This document shows, in pieces, positions 11,679 to 16,842 of a stretch of DNA of 64,000 nucleotides. Under the pieces are notes generated by a model. That model saw only the letters and a list, made by a program, of their open reading frames with translations, ran no database searches and was not told the DNA's origin. The stretch spans positions 1,178,001 to 1,242,000 of the forward strand of contig NZ_JAFBCM010000001.1 in NCBI RefSeq assembly GCF_016907715.1, written 5' to 3'. Numbering within the stretch: position 1 is the stretch's first letter; each line of letters starts with the position of its first letter. This DNA comes from Tenggerimyces flavus (GTDB lineage: Bacteria > Actinomycetota > Actinomycetes > Propionibacteriales > Actinopolymorphaceae). Both the position numbers and the translations under genes were made by a program.

Positions 11679-12167
11679 TCACGCGGTGTCGCGTACGTCC
11701 GTTCCCTGCTCGGCGAACGCCTTGAAGTCCTGCATGTACTGTTCGGTCTGCTTGCGGAACGCTCCCGGCATCACGAGCCCCACCAACCGCATCATGAGGC
11801 CGCTGAACCGATACTCGCTCTCGCTCTCCCAGAGCGTCTGGTCCGGACCCGCTTCGGTGAAGCGGTCGCGCACGACGCTACACATGCCCTGCACGGTGAG
11901 CTCGCGGTCGTACTGAACGACGGTCTCCGTCGGGAGCTGGCTGAGGTCCGCCGGCTCTCGTCGGGTGATGGTCTCGACTGCCTCCACCTTCTGTTGGCCC
12001 GTCTGGATGACCACCCGCGACTTGGTGCCGACCTCCCCATGCGCCCCGCTGATCGGCTCGTGCTCGACCAAGCCACGCAGCCATTTCGGGAAGTGGGCGG
12101 GGTCGGCGACCAGCTGGACCACCCGCTCACGTGGGAGGGCTACCTGGATCGAGACGGTGAACTTCAT
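11679..12167 (-). CDS. SRPBCC (START-like / polyketide cyclase-dehydrase) family protein
   Basis: This 162-residue cytosolic protein begins with the classic first strand of the SRPBCC fold (MKFTVSIQVALPRERVVQLV) and the motif DPAHFPKW in the following helix. Later it shows alternating strands with WESESEYRF near residue 115 and a long C-terminal helix. The fold makes a deep hydrophobic ligand pocket, but the ligand cannot be predicted. It is 10 bases downstream of the rhodanese gene on the same strand, so it is probably the last gene of that operon. Confidence 0.8.
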   Translation of the reverse strand: MKFTVSIQVALPRERVVQLVADPAHFPKWLRGLVEHEPISGAHGEVGTKSRVVIQTGQQKVEAVETITRREPADLSQLPTETVVQYDRELTVQGMCSVVRDRFTEAGPDQTLWESESEYRFSGLMMRLVGLVMPGAFRKQTEQYMQDFKAFAEQGTDVRDTA

Positions 12168-12177
12168 GAGGGCGACC

Positions 12178-12603
12178 CTAGAGCAGGAAGAGCGCCTCGG
12201 GTTCGGCTGTCGCCGGCTCCAGGTCCTCCCTTGTCCACGGCAGTCCGGCCGCCAGCCAGGCCGCGAAGCCGCCCGCGAGGTCGGTGGCGTGCCGGAGCCC
12301 GATGTCCTGCAGGGTCGCGGCCGCCAGGCTGGACGCGTACCCCTCCGAGCAGAACACGATCACCCGCAGGTCCCACCCGGTCGCCTGCGGCAGCCGGGCC
12401 TCGCTGGTGGGGTCGAGCCGCCACTCCAGCACGTTCCGCTCGATGACCAGCGCGCCCGGGATCGACCCCTCCGCGGCCCGTTGCGCGACCGGCCGGATGT
12501 CGACGAGCAGCGCGCCACCCGTACGCCAGGCCGCCCAGGCCTGCTCGGCGTCGACTCGGTCGAGCCGCTGCCGCGTCCGCTCGAGCACCGCGTCGATGGT
12601 CAC
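12178..12603 (-). CDS. Rhodanese-like sulfurtransferase
   Basis: A single rhodanese domain fills this 141-residue protein. The hallmark features are VDIRP (residues ~34-38), GSIPGALVI (~47-54) and the active-site loop CSEGYAS with the persulfide-forming Cys at ~85. A final GGFAAW motif is typical of the domain. The GTG start overlaps the stop of the cysteine dioxygenase-like gene (GTGA), so the two are translationally coupled. Cupin thiol dioxygenases and rhodaneses often co-occur in persulfide and cysteine breakdown, where one oxidises and the other transfers sulfane sulfur. The long N-terminal helix of ~20 residues is a common variant. Confidence 0.9.
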   Translation of the reverse strand: MTIDAVLERTRQRLDRVDAEQAWAAWRTGGALLVDIRPVAQRAAEGSIPGALVIERNVLEWRLDPTSEARLPQATGWDLRVIVFCSEGYASSLAAATLQDIGLRHATDLAGGFAAWLAAGLPWTREDLEPATAEPEALFLL

Positions 12604-13142
12604 CAGTTCACCCCCGCCCGCTCCGACGCCACCACCCGCAAGCGGTCGTCCTCCAGGACGTACTGCGTCATCGCGGTGAGCTCCGGCGCATACGCGTGGA
12701 TGCTGACCGCGGGCTCGGTGCCGAAGTTGCCGACGTCGTGGATGTGCTCGTACCCGAACCCGCGCACCCGGCCCTCGTGGATCTGCCGGCGAACGACATC
12801 GACCGGCTCCAGGCCGCTGTTGAGGTCGCGCGGCCTGCGCGGGTGCACGGTGGTCTCGGTGAGCGTGCCGCGCACGACGGTGAACGCGCCGAGCGCCTCG
12901 CCGTGGTCGTGCAGGCCGGTGCTCTGGCCGGGCAGCCAGGCGATCAGCCAGATGTCGTGCTCGGGATCGAGGAACAGGCGCTCGAACCAGCGTTCGTCGC
13001 CTTCCCCGTACCGCACCAGTTCCTCCCAGAGGTCGGCGTCGGCGCCGATCCGGCGCACGAGCGCGGCCGCGGCGGCGACGGTCGGACCGACCGGTGGGGT
13101 GTAGCCGTTGTGGTGGCTGAACGAGAGCTCCGTGGTGGTCAT
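12600..13142 (-). CDS. Cysteine dioxygenase type I-like cupin
   Basis: The 180-residue cupin carries iron ligands in LHDHGEA (His ~78 and ~80) and HIHDVGN (His ~135), the pattern of the cysteine dioxygenase family, which oxidises cysteine to cysteine sulfinate with Fe(II) and O2. I chose the ATG at 13142 because GGAG sits 6 bases upstream; a TTG four codons earlier would overlap that ribosome site. Its stop overlaps the start of the rhodanese, supporting a joint role in thiol or sulfur catabolism. Substrate could also be 3-mercaptopropionate or another thiol. The gene lies 168 bases downstream of the SAM-riboswitch-controlled aminotransferase, and it is unclear whether they share a transcript. 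Confidence 0.88.
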   Translation of the reverse strand: MTTTELSFSHHNGYTPPVGPTVAAAAALVRRIGADADLWEELVRYGEGDERWFERLFLDPEHDIWLIAWLPGQSTGLHDHGEALGAFTVVRGTLTETTVHPRRPRDLNSGLEPVDVVRRQIHEGRVRGFGYEHIHDVGNFGTEPAVSIHAYAPELTAMTQYVLEDDRLRVVASERAGVNW

Positions 13143-13224
13143 CCTGGTCTCCAACGAATCCGATCGAACTGCTAGGAATTAGAACGTTCGAGGGGTACCG
13201 CTGGGGAGCTCTCAGGGGTGTGAG

Positions 13225-13317
13225 TCAGCCAGCGGTGCGCGCGAGGCGACACCGCTCATCGAAGTGGTCGCCGCGGCGACCGTTCCAGAACACGTCAAGC
13301 AGGAAGCGACTCACCAT
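13225..13317 (-). other. Possible 30-residue small ORF coupled to the aminotransferase stop
   Basis: An ATG (13315-13317) begins within the last codons of the aminotransferase gene (ATGGTGA; the stop is the TGA inside it) and opens a 30-codon frame, MVSRFLLDVFWNGRRGDHFD and ten more residues. Overlap at a stop is typical of coupled genes, but the product matches nothing known to me. The frame also contains a perfect 16-bp palindrome (GGTCGCCGCGGCGACC, 13266-13281) that might instead act as an RNA hairpin. No other feature is evident in the 168-base gap. Confidence 0.25.
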
Positions 13318-14705
13318 GCGGGCTCGCTCTCGCATGGCGCCGTGCCGGTGGCCACGGGCGCGTCGTCGTCGAGCCACTCCGGCGTCGGGCGCGGGTCGGG
13401 GCTCGGGGCCCAGCGGCCCTCGACGGTGTCGTACGTCCAGCGCGGGCCACGGGTGAGCAGCGCGTCGAGCGCGTCCGCGAGCCGGTCGACGTCCGCGGTC
13501 GTGCTGCCGGCGCCGAAGCTGGCGCGCACGGCGCCGTCGTTCGCGCCGAGGCGGCTCAGCAGCGGGTGTGCGCAGAACTTGCCGTCGCGTACGCCGATGC
13601 CGTGCTCGGCCGACAGATAGGCGGCGACGAACCCGGGGTGGTAGCCGTCCACGGAGAACGCCACCACACCGATCGAGTCCGGGCTGTCCCGCCAGATCTG
13701 GTGCACCTTTATATGGTCCAGCAGCGCAAGCCTGTCGAGCAGTCGATCCCGCAATGCGGACTCGTGTTCTTCGAGCGCCCCCTCTTCCAGGTCCGCGATG
13801 GCCGTGCAGGCGCGGGCGAGCGCGACGGCGCCGAGCACGTTCGGCGTCCCGCCCTCGTGCCGCTGCGGTGCGTCGGCCCACTGGGTGCTTGCGACGGTGA
13901 CCTCGCGGACGGCGCCGCCGCCGGCGAGGTACGCGGGCGCCTCGTCCAGCCAGTCGCGGCGGCCGACGAGCACGCCGGCTCCGTGCGGGGCGTACAGCTT
14001 GTGCCCGGAGAACGCGACGTAGTCGACGCCGGTCTCCTCGAGGTCGATGCGGCGGTGCGGGGCCAGCTGGGCGGCGTCGAGGACGACGCGGGCGCCGGCG
14101 GCGTGGGCGATCTCGACGATCTGCTGGAGCGGGAGGAGCTCGCCGGTGACGTTCGAGGCTCCGGTGACCGCGACCAGGCTGGCCTTGCGGGCGTGCAACT
14201 CGGCTCGCAGCGCGATCAGCGTGGCGTTCTGGGTGGTGCCGGCGAGGACGCAGCGGTGGTTGACGCGCTGCCAGGGCAGCAGGTTCGCGTGGTGCTCGAT
14301 GTCGAGGAAGACCACGCCGTCGTCGTTCGGCAGGCAGGTCGCGAGCAGGTTGAGCGCGTCGGTGGTGTTGCGGGTGAAGACGACGACATCGTCCTCGCGG
14401 GCGTTCAGGAACTCGGCGACCGTGGTGCGCGCGCTCTCGTACAGCCGGGTGCTGACCTGGCTCGCGTAGCCGGCGCCGCGGTGGACTGACGCGTAGTAGG
14501 GGAGGACCTCGTTCAGGTGCTCGGCCACGGACTTGAGGCTCGGCGCGCTGGCGGCGTAGTCGAGGTTGACGTACCGGCGCCACTCGCCGGTGACGAGCGG
14601 AACGCTGAGGTCGCCGCCGACGACGGGCAACAGCGGCTGGGCAGTGGTGGCGGCGCTGGTCGCGGTGGCCGGACAGGTCTCGGGCCGGGTGTCCAGGGCA
14701 GTCAT
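13311..14705 (-). CDS. Aminotransferase class V, group II cysteine desulfurase-like (SufS/CsdA-type)
   Basis: The 464-residue PLP enzyme has the NifS/SufS fold. The PLP lysine is in SGHKLYAPHG (Lys ~236), the cofactor-stacking histidine in DIEHHANLLPW (~138-139), and the SufS-type catalytic cysteine is conserved in GVRDGKFCAHPLL (Cys ~378). This supports cysteine desulfurase or cysteine/selenocysteine lyase activity, releasing sulfur from cysteine as an enzyme persulfide. The start (ATG at 14705) follows AAAGGT. That ribosome site can pair with the 3' part of a SAM-IV riboswitch, so translation should fall when SAM is high. No SUF genes are adjacent, so a role in sulfur recycling is more likely than Fe-S assembly. 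It is longer than SufS (~405) through an N-terminal extension of ~40 residues. Confidence 0.88.
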   Translation of the reverse strand: MTALDTRPETCPATATSAATTAQPLLPVVGGDLSVPLVTGEWRRYVNLDYAASAPSLKSVAEHLNEVLPYYASVHRGAGYASQVSTRLYESARTTVAEFLNAREDDVVVFTRNTTDALNLLATCLPNDDGVVFLDIEHHANLLPWQRVNHRCVLAGTTQNATLIALRAELHARKASLVAVTGASNVTGELLPLQQIVEIAHAAGARVVLDAAQLAPHRRIDLEETGVDYVAFSGHKLYAPHGAGVLVGRRDWLDEAPAYLAGGGAVREVTVASTQWADAPQRHEGGTPNVLGAVALARACTAIADLEEGALEEHESALRDRLLDRLALLDHIKVHQIWRDSPDSIGVVAFSVDGYHPGFVAAYLSAEHGIGVRDGKFCAHPLLSRLGANDGAVRASFGAGSTTADVDRLADALDALLTRGPRWTYDTVEGRWAPSPDPRPTPEWLDDDAPVATGTAPCESEPAW

Positions 14706-14714
14706 CTCTCGAGT

Positions 14715-14745
14715 GGACCTTTCGGATCGGGGACCCGGAAGGTCC
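14715..14745 (-). promoter_or_regulatory. Expression platform: hairpin sequestering the ribosome site of the aminotransferase gene
   Basis: On the minus strand GGACCTTCCGG (at the 3' edge of the riboswitch) can pair with CCGAAAGGTCC directly upstream of the ATG, an 11-bp stem with one mismatch and a 9-base loop. The pairing would bury the AAAGGT ribosome site. Because the upstream arm overlaps the riboswitch end, ligand binding could shift the balance. A competing hairpin GGGACC-ttcc-GGGTCCC lies in the same place. The ON/OFF direction is inference. Confidence 0.6.
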
Positions 14746-14854
14746 CGCGCTTGCCGTAACGGGTTCGGTACGACCTGGTCTTCACCCGGGGCACCCCACC
14801 GCGGAGGAGGGTTGCCGGCCAGCAAGCCGGGGCTATGCGCTGGCACTCATGACC
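14741..14854 (-). ncRNA. SAM-IV riboswitch
   Basis: Read on the minus strand, the ~114-base segment begins GGTCATGAGTGCCAGCG and continues with GCCCCGGCTTGCTGGCCGGC, AACCCTCC, a GCGGTGGGGTGCCCCGGGTG block and GAAGACCAGGT, and ends GGCAAGCGCGGGACC. From memory these blocks, in this order, match the actinobacterial SAM-IV class (SAM-binding core with an extra 3' pseudoknot formed by GCAAGCGCGGG). It lies 35 bases before the start of the SufS-like gene. SAM-IV elements turn down sulfur-amino-acid genes when SAM is abundant, so SAM status should control this gene. Confidence 0.9.
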
Positions 14855-15022
14855 ACTCACGACGATAAGGGCAGCCATCCCATCGCCGTCGAGATATCTC
14901 ACATCCCAAGACCACGTCTCACCATCCGGACACCCACTCGGTCGCTACTCCACCGGGCGTACCCGCGTGATCGACCGCCGGTCGATGTCAGAGACGGGCG
15001 CCGTGGCTTAGCGTTCGATGCC

Positions 15023-16180
15023 ATGCGGACCGAATCGTGGCGGCGATGGCGCGAGGCCCATCCCACCCTCACGTCCGCGCTGCTCGTCGGCGGCATCGCC
15101 CTGGTCCAAGTCCTGGTCTCCACCTTCGCCCATCGCGGCCAGCCGCAACGGGTCGAGCCCGACTGGTTCGCGTACGTGCTGCTCGCCGCCGGCCCGGCGA
15201 TGCTCTGGTGGCGCCACCGGTTCCCCGCCCTCGTCGTCATCGGCGCCGCGAAGGTCACGCTCATCTACATGCTGATCGGCTACCCGTACGGCCCGATCAT
15301 CCTGAGCCCGATCGTCGCCGCCTTCTTCGCGATCGCGAACGGTCGGCGGCTCGCCGCCTGGGGCTCGGCGTTCGGCCTGCTCATCCTGCACTTCGCGGGC
15401 AGCCGCCTCCTGCACACGCCCGGCGGGCCGTCGCTGTTCCCCACCGCCATGCTCACGGCCGGCTGGATGGCGGCCATCCTCGGGGCCGCCGAGCTGCTGC
15501 AGCTGCGGACCAAATGGGTCACCGCACACCTGCGCGCCCGCCAGGCCGAGGCCGACACGAAGGTCTCCGACGAACGTCTTCGCATCGCGCGCGAGCTCCA
15601 CGACGTGGTCGCGCACAACATCTCGCTGATCAACGTCCAGGCCGGCGTCGCGCTGCACCTCATCGACACCCAACCGCAGCAGGCCCGCACCGCCCTGACC
15701 GCGATCAAGCAAGCCAGCAAGGAAGCCCTGGTCGAGCTCCGTTCCGTGCTCGGCGTACTCCGTCAGGTCGACGAGCCCGAGCCCACCCAGCCGGCGCCCA
15801 GCCTGCAGCGGCTCGACCAGCTCGTCGCCCGTACTCGCCAAGCCGGGCTCGACGTCTCGGTCGACAGCGACGGAGAGAACGGTGCCCTCCCCCTGGGCGT
15901 CGACGTCGCCGCGTACCGGATCGTTCAAGAGGCGTTGACGAACGTCGTACGCCACGCCCACGCCACCCACGCGAAGGTCAAGCTCGACCACCAGCCCGGC
16001 AAGCTGGTCGTCAGCGTCGACGACAACGGTCGCGGTGCGGCGTCGACCGTGACCGGCGGAAGCGGGATCGTCGGCATGCGCGAACGGGCCGAGGCACTCG
16101 GCGGGGAGCTTCGCATCGGCCCGTCGCCGCAGGGCGGCTTCAGTGTCAAGGCAACCTTGCCCACGGAAGGCGCGGAATGA
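15023..16180 (+). CDS. NarL/DesK-type sensor histidine kinase
   Basis: The 385-residue membrane kinase has about five or six hydrophobic helices in residues ~18-160, then a short linker and a HisKA_3 domain with the phosphoacceptor His ~193 in IARELHDVVAHNIS. The HATPase domain follows, with an N-box QEALTNVVRHAHA (~300-315) and the G motifs VDDNGRGAA and SGIVGMRERAEALGG. The start is the ATG at 15023; the frame is open further upstream but that part looks non-coding. The stop overlaps the ATG of the response regulator (ATGA). The short extracellular loops suggest sensing within the membrane, and the stimulus is unknown. Confidence 0.92.
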   Translation: MRTESWRRWREAHPTLTSALLVGGIALVQVLVSTFAHRGQPQRVEPDWFAYVLLAAGPAMLWWRHRFPALVVIGAAKVTLIYMLIGYPYGPIILSPIVAAFFAIANGRRLAAWGSAFGLLILHFAGSRLLHTPGGPSLFPTAMLTAGWMAAILGAAELLQLRTKWVTAHLRARQAEADTKVSDERLRIARELHDVVAHNISLINVQAGVALHLIDTQPQQARTALTAIKQASKEALVELRSVLGVLRQVDEPEPTQPAPSLQRLDQLVARTRQAGLDVSVDSDGENGALPLGVDVAAYRIVQEALTNVVRHAHATHAKVKLDHQPGKLVVSVDDNGRGAASTVTGGSGIVGMRERAEALGGELRIGPSPQGGFSVKATLPTEGAE

Positions 16181-16842
16181 TCCGAGTAGTGCTCGCCGAC
16201 GACCAGGCGCTCGTGCGTGCTGGGTTCCGCGCGTTGATCGACAACGAGCCGGACATCTCCGTGGTCGGCGAGGCGAGCGACGGCGCCGAGGCCTTCGAGG
16301 TGGTTCGCCAGACGGTGCCCGACGTCGTGCTGATGGACATCCGCATGCCGGGGACGGACGGGCTCGAGGCGACGCGGCTGATCGCGAACGAGTCGGCGCT
16401 GAAGGACGTCCACGTCGTGATCCTGACGACGTTCGAGCTCGACGACTACGTCTTCGCGGCACTGCGTACGGGCGCGAGCGGCTTCCTCGTCAAGGACACC
16501 GAACCCGTCGACCTCATCCGCGGCGTCCGCGCCGTCGCGTCCGGCGACGCCCTCCTCTCGCCCAGCGTGACGAGGCGGCTGATCGCGGAGTTCGCGTCCC
16601 GTTCGAAGGACCCGGTCAACCTGCCGGACCTCACCATGCTGACGGACCGCGAACGCGAGATCGTCGCCCTCGTCGGTACGGGTCTGAACAACGACGAGAT
16701 CGCCGAGCAGCTGTTCGTCAGCCCCGCCACGGCCAAGACTCACGTGAGCCGCGCCATGATCAAGCTGGGAGCGAGAGACCGCGCCCAGCTCGTCGTCTTC
16801 GCCTACGAAGCCGGCCTCGTCCGCCCCGGCTGGCTCGGCTAA
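16177..16842 (+). CDS. NarL/FixJ-family response regulator
   Basis: The 221-residue regulator has a receiver domain with acidic pocket ADDQ (residues ~7-10), phosphoacceptor Asp 54 in VVLMDIRMPG, the Thr in ILTTFELDD and Lys in FLVKD. A LuxR-type helix-turn-helix follows at ~150-215 (LTDREREIVALVGTGLNNDE, then VSPATAKTHVSRAMIKLGA). It is the cognate partner of the kinase it overlaps. Its stop overlaps the stop of the convergent lipoprotein gene by 4 bases. Targets cannot be deduced; the neighbouring genes have no visible shared operator. Confidence 0.94.
   Translation: MIRVVLADDQALVRAGFRALIDNEPDISVVGEASDGAEAFEVVRQTVPDVVLMDIRMPGTDGLEATRLIANESALKDVHVVILTTFELDDYVFAALRTGASGFLVKDTEPVDLIRGVRAVASGDALLSPSVTRRLIAEFASRSKDPVNLPDLTMLTDREREIVALVGTGLNNDEIAEQLFVSPATAKTHVSRAMIKLGARDRAQLVVFAYEAGLVRPGWLG

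Follow-up and report, generated by a model that had tools for sequence, protein, structure and literature searches.

A complete SAM-IV riboswitch directly precedes a gene for a SufS-like cysteine desulfurase in Tenggerimyces flavus, a pairing that is real and conserved across many actinobacteria and therefore not surprising, and modeling of the leader indicates that the riboswitch probably lowers translation of the desulfurase when SAM is plentiful. The predicted SAM-off switch would depend on a few bases that serve both the PK-2 pseudoknot of the aptamer and an anti-sequestor hairpin ahead of the ribosome site. Positions below are those of the window, the whole 64,000-nt stretch of DNA that was analyzed; the riboswitch and the genes behind it lie on the minus strand.

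The aptamer (14742–14854) matches the Rfam SAM-IV model RF00634 from model position 1 to 116 (14854–14742, minus; 113.7 bits vs. a gathering score of 38; E 3.1e-20), so the covariance-model scan that had been set beforehand as the check places it well above the gathering score and bears out the sequence-only reading of an essentially complete riboswitch. At gathering thresholds the window contains no second RF00634 match, and no other SAM-IV was found elsewhere in the 8.5-Mb genome among the 150 of 3289 first-look candidates that were scored. Pairing was counted across 22 aligned canonical SAM-IV sequences, the window's among them, with P1, P2, P3, P5, PK-1, and PK-2 written out; standard pairs occupy 93.6% of cells, a percentage biased towards the structure used, which was taken from the Rfam annotation of the window's row. 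Shuffled controls average 83.5% and none of 500 reaches the observed value, while slid registers give 34.0–46.1%. Changes on both sides occur in 20 of the 41 pairs. PK-1 is paired in 100% of cells and PK-2 in 80.5%, with both-side changes in five of its six pairs; the PK-2 strands are UCCGCG in the P3 loop (5′ strand, 14800–14805) and CGCGGG (3′ strand, 14744–14749). The available part of the cryo-EM account of SAM-IV gives PK-1 and PK-2 without a P4 helix as features of the class, and describes PK-2 as a pairing of the P3 region with the 3′ end (PMC6890682); both pseudoknots are present in the window, P4 is absent, and the architecture agrees with that description. Full length, with P1, P2a/b, P3, P5, and both pseudoknots, and showing no difference from the RF00634 aptamer, the window copy is, as judged from its sequence, an ordinary SAM-IV of known kind.

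Several observations concern the surroundings of the aptamer. In all seven relatives from the window's family (G001–G007; L068, L069, L067, L064, L066, L070, and L071) an insert of 63–71 nt, which folds as an additional arm, splits P2a from P2b; the true 5′ part lies further upstream than the Rfam match, which puts the 5′ end wrongly in these seven, and the window copy has no such insert. A palindrome, GAGATATCTC, stands upstream of the window aptamer at 14891–14900, and palindromes also occur upstream of SAM-IV in L083 (ATCTCATTAAATGAGAT) and L038; all are possible operators. A divergent pair of genes for a histidine kinase and a LuxR-type response regulator (15023–16842, plus strand) adjoins the riboswitch. 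A search for promoter consensus sequences near the riboswitch found nothing.

The downstream gene (13311–14705, minus) encodes a protein of 464 aa that matches Aminotran_5 with 304.9 bits; its ATG (14705–14703) lies 36 nt past the aptamer end. Cys378, in the loop RDGKFCAHP, and the PLP lysine Lys236, in SGHK, are invariant in an alignment of 12 relatives and align with the corresponding residues of solved desulfurase structures, in which we take the cysteine to be catalytic. With a cysteine in RxGxxCAxP and a PLP lysine, the protein has, by alignment, the catalytic residues of a type II cysteine desulfurase, as the sequence-only reading had anticipated in describing a PLP desulfurase with a catalytic cysteine motif directly behind the riboswitch. 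It shares with SufS and CsdA the RxGxxCAxP loop, the SGHK, EHHAN, and RAS motifs, and a match to the same fold family. However, its top NCBIfam match, SufS (TIGR01979), scores 308 bits, below the curated cut-off of 475.1, for which reason the protein is named only SufS-like; the CsdA model likewise scores 225.5 bits against a cut-off of 493.6, and no suf genes lie beside it in the window. The genome's SufB gene (G000:C1:4231176–4232519) has another Aminotran_5 gene (494 bits) nearby at 4234997, about 3 Mb from the window gene (1191479–1192570). The window protein was accordingly rejected as the housekeeping SufS and is regarded as a second, separate enzyme.

The combination is widespread. In the 117 genomes of the order (the window's own and 116 relatives), 76 SAM-IV sites were found in 64 genomes, and 53 of the 76 directly precede a desulfurase gene. 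A desulfurase profile applied to 60 further genomes of the class gave 16 matches scoring 541 bits or more, then two of 370 and 355 bits and all others at or below 272; the ortholog line of 541 bits was set after this gap was visible, and the genomes of the two intermediate matches (G143 and G124) carry no SAM-IV. Fifteen of these 16 orthologs, all except that of G131, have a SAM-IV 46–254 nt upstream on the same strand, proximity being judged by coordinates; seen from the other side, 15 of the 41 SAM-IV sites in the 60 genomes precede a desulfurase. Among named relatives, including Arthrobacter, Nocardia, Rhodococcus, Pseudonocardia, and Cellulomonas, a SAM-IV lies upstream in 77 of 80, a fraction biased to close relatives because the 80 are the best of at least 579 confirmed; the three without one are a Leifsonia (L107), a Microbacteriaceae MAG (L167), and a Glaciihabitans (L176). 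At 29 further SAM-IV loci of the class the target is a desulfurase in 18 and one other family in 11, one member of which was recognized as an O-acetylhomoserine/O-acetylserine sulfhydrylase.

The desulfurase is thus one of two main SAM-IV targets here, the second being O-acetylhomoserine sulfhydrylase. The sequence-only reading had set the desulfurase apart from methionine and sulfhydrylation genes as an unusual target; that contrast fails, and the idea was dropped, since SAM-IV precedes desulfurase orthologs widely in the order, in the class, and among the best named relatives, and the pair has been published for Streptomyces. The available text on Streptomyces lividans TK24 places a SAM-IV upstream of SLIV_26975, annotated as a cysteine desulfurase (PMC8079986), the same riboswitch class and the same gene annotation as in the window, the likeness being one of annotation; the gene carries a thiamine-metabolism label there, and that text gives no mechanism. 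The accessible part of a study of Mycobacterium avium puts the same riboswitch class before a different target, the O-acetylhomoserine sulfhydrylase gene MAV_4315 (PMC3774663), which corresponds to the target at 11 of the 29 class loci.

Some individual loci depart from the simple arrangement. One contig (G160:C16) carries two back-to-back SAM-IV riboswitches that point apart (1956–2073, minus, and 2175–2291, plus), one of them before a desulfurase. In genus g5 a second SAM-IV (L047 and L055) directly precedes a related gene, the protein at L047 being a GNAT acetyltransferase. Eight of the 11 sulfhydrylase loci (L179, L182, L183, L184, L186, L187, L195, and L196) have, between SAM-IV and the sulfhydrylase gene, short ORFs with at least one cysteine codon, for example MRCCCQ, a raw count that carries no chance control.

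In the window's own leader two alternative structures are predicted downstream of the aptamer. The anti-sequestor hairpin pairs GGGACCU (14746–14740) with GGGUCCC (14736–14730), spanning 14730–14746, and takes up the last three bases of the PK-2 3′ strand; the sequestor, in folds that keep PK-2, pairs ACCUU (14743–14739) with AAGGU (14721–14717), spanning 14717–14743, and encloses an inner stem, CGGGUC (14737–14732) with GAUCCG (14728–14723). The candidate ribosome site, AAAGG (14718–14722), 12 nt ahead of the ATG, lies within the sequestor. When PK-2 is open, the outer stem lengthens to 7 bp, GGACCUU (14745–14739) with AAGGUCC (14721–14715). The sequence-only proposal that the 3′ arm of the riboswitch can pair with the ribosome site therefore stands in part: this pairing is possible and the layout is conserved in kind, but the exact 7 bp are the window's own, and relatives whose folds were inspected show sequestration with partly different partners.

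SAM would stabilize PK-2 and so make its end unavailable to the anti-sequestor; the freed downstream segment would then pair with the ribosome-site stretch, and translation would stop. With SAM absent, the anti-sequestor would form first in transcription and AAAGG would stay open. The predicted probability that the window's ribosome site is unpaired is 0.66 in the anti-sequestor state, 0.03 with PK-2 held, and 0.00 without constraint. The anti-sequestor state (−16.1 kcal/mol) is less stable than the unconstrained fold (−21.9 kcal/mol); the equilibrium leader is therefore closed with or without ligand, and the open state would need a kinetic, co-transcriptional step. The window's accessibility difference is matched by 6.7% of its own shuffles and its anti-sequestor by 14%. 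Global fold energy was set aside as uninformative (z −0.91 for the 60-nt platform alone, with 40 of 200 shuffles equal or better).

Comparison of leaders makes the case for the exchange. Of 130 collected, 129 could be placed, L148 being omitted for want of a start codon that could be placed; for 12 without a recognizable ribosome site, a fixed window took its place. The linker from aptamer to start codon measures 31–73 nt in 88 leaders, and every one of these (84 distinct and 4 duplicates) has an anti-sequestor hairpin whose 5′ arm is built from the end of the PK-2 3′ strand, bases 4–6. The pair made by PK-2 base 6 in the hairpin is A-U in 68, G-C in 11, C-G in 4, and G-U in 1, with 4 unpaired; the inner pairs are more variable. 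Because pairs in a minimum-energy fold are standard by construction, the real evidence comes from shuffled linkers, used on 49 representatives. There the anti-sequestor pairs with a probability of 0.97 vs. 0.70 in shuffles (p 8e-13), 28 of the 49 reaching 0.05 or less on their own. When PK-2 is held, the ribosome site is sequestered with a probability of 0.73 vs. 0.59 (p 9e-6), and 10 of the 49 reach that level singly. Across the 88 long leaders the ribosome site is unpaired with probability 0.55 when the anti-sequestor is formed and 0.23 when PK-2 is held, rising in 79 and falling in 1; the accessibility difference in the representatives, 0.29 vs. 0.16 in shuffles (p 1.4e-5), exceeds the shuffles individually in 4 of 49.

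These state comparisons and controls were adopted because merely freeing the PK-2 strand has a weak effect, with mixed signs, for which it was abandoned as a test of switching: accessibility changes to 0.35 vs. 0.30 in long leaders (40 up, 14 down) and to 0.29 vs. 0.24 in short ones (20 up, 10 down). As a conserved layout of predicted folds, the PK-2/anti-sequestor exchange is well supported. The RF00634 model does not include this downstream competition, and no description of it was found in the available text of the SAM-IV literature searched, a set outside which the founding paper (Weinberg 2008) lies. The cryo-EM account, in the part available, bears against an exchange at PK-2, since PK-2 is already drawn in the apo fold and SAM binding does not disrupt pairing, the overall fold being kept (PMC6890682). 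Also counting against the proposed switch are the closed equilibrium fold, the weak effect of freeing PK-2, the small number of individually significant leaders, and the 41 of 129 leaders that lack the anti-sequestor platform.

Those 41 leaders, 38 of them from genus g5 and 3 from g6, place the start codon only 13–18 nt past the aptamer, a spacing that suits direct steric block, in which the SAM-bound fold itself excludes ribosomes and the hairpins are secondary. In the window, where the linker is 36 nt and both alternative hairpins are present, we find such a block scarcely credible. The opposite sense of control, in which SAM switches the gene on so that the desulfurase and a cysteine dioxygenase dispose of surplus sulfur, is favored by the closed state of the window leader at equilibrium without any ligand and by the cysteine dioxygenase (CDO) and rhodanese genes described below, which fit cysteine breakdown. 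In most leaders, however, the ribosome site becomes less accessible or stays closed when PK-2 is held, it opens together with the anti-sequestor, the competitor of PK-2 (79 of 88), and the other main target, O-acetylhomoserine sulfhydrylase, is biosynthetic, so that repression by SAM is expected; activation by SAM is accordingly judged improbable.

The main rival to the SAM-off translational switch keeps the same aptamer and the same sense of control and acts through transcription, with SAM causing premature termination, either at an intrinsic terminator lacking a U-tract or through Rho once translation has ceased. It owes that place to Streptomyces clavuligerus, in which the available part of a published report gives a SAM-IV before the aminotransferase class V gene CRV15_21540 as a premature transcription unit (PMC8269248). 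The class of riboswitch and the protein fold family are those of the window, likened by description, and the premature unit suggests transcriptional control there, unlike the translational model drawn here. In the window no intrinsic terminator pattern is present at 14600–15050, and the second conserved helix lies over the ribosome site and does not end in a U-run; transcriptional control of the window's gene is thus considered unlikely.

Behind the desulfurase, and on the same strand after a gap of 156 nt, lies a cysteine dioxygenase-like gene (CDO_I; 12600–13154, minus; PF05995, 64.5 bits vs. a gathering score of 23), whose listed TTG start is provisional; a gene for a rhodanese-domain protein (12178–12603, minus; PF00581, 47.1 bits) overlaps it by 4 nt. 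Both had been named as followers of the desulfurase in the sequence-only reading and are borne out by these matches. A gene for an SRPBCC (Polyketide_cyc2) protein (11679–12167, minus; PF10604, 35 bits) begins 10 nt past the rhodanese gene and may belong to the same unit. The order desulfurase–CDO–rhodanese is conserved in six of seven relatives from the same family, and the three genes are probably co-controlled in that family.

Among the 80 named loci (the best of at least 579 relatives) CDO and rhodanese genes adjoin the desulfurase in one, a contig of Actinopolymorpha alba (Actinopolymorphaceae, Propionibacteriales); equal in length to G005:C37 and with an identical leader, this contig (L099) duplicates one of the six family cases. 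The CDO-rhodanese tail behind the desulfurase is thus particular to the family of the window. That CDO-rhodanese is tied to SAM control in other places too is supported by g4, a genus of the order (G008, G016, and G115), in which a different SAM-IV is followed by a short leader peptide and then by CDO and rhodanese genes; the peptides of G008 and G016 score above the cut-off of NCBIfam NF042934.

Leader peptides with the pattern HxDLxRxxSxxC directly follow SAM-IV at four loci, three before CDO-rhodanese (L053, L049, and L045) and one before an ABC permease (L051); the three of these peptides that were scanned score above the NF042934 cut-off, and double control by SAM and cysteine is possible. 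Conserved neighborhood was rejected as a clue to function, as outside the window's family no neighbor family occurs at more than 31 of the 80 named loci; the two commonest there, among these best 80 of at least 579 relatives, are EPSP synthase and inositol monophosphatase. At the Pseudonocardia locus L148, TauD and a transporter-type binding protein lie downstream.

The kind of aptamer and its pairing with a desulfurase in Streptomyces were already known; what is worth following is the CDO-rhodanese tail and the PK-2/anti-sequestor exchange, the latter offering, in the use of the same bases for PK-2 and anti-sequestor, a testable expression-platform model for a class with a solved aptamer structure. 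As a standing SAM-IV target in many actinobacterial families, the desulfurase is predicted to have a role in methionine and SAM supply rather than in iron-sulfur assembly. When SAM is scarce the desulfurase would be made, in the window's family probably together with the cysteine dioxygenase and rhodanese, and these enzymes would mobilize cysteine sulfur towards methionine and SAM. A tentative wider reading, which we hold as possible, is that SAM-IV and a non-housekeeping desulfurase, in some lineages with CDO-rhodanese, constitute a SAM-governed sulfur-mobilizing module of actinobacteria that works by the conserved PK-2/anti-sequestor exchange. CDO-rhodanese would have been brought under SAM-IV by two routes, in Actinopolymorphaceae by following the desulfurase and in g4 through a SAM-IV of its own with a cysteine leader peptide; at low SAM, sulfur stripped from cysteine, partly via sulfinate, would go into methionine and SAM.
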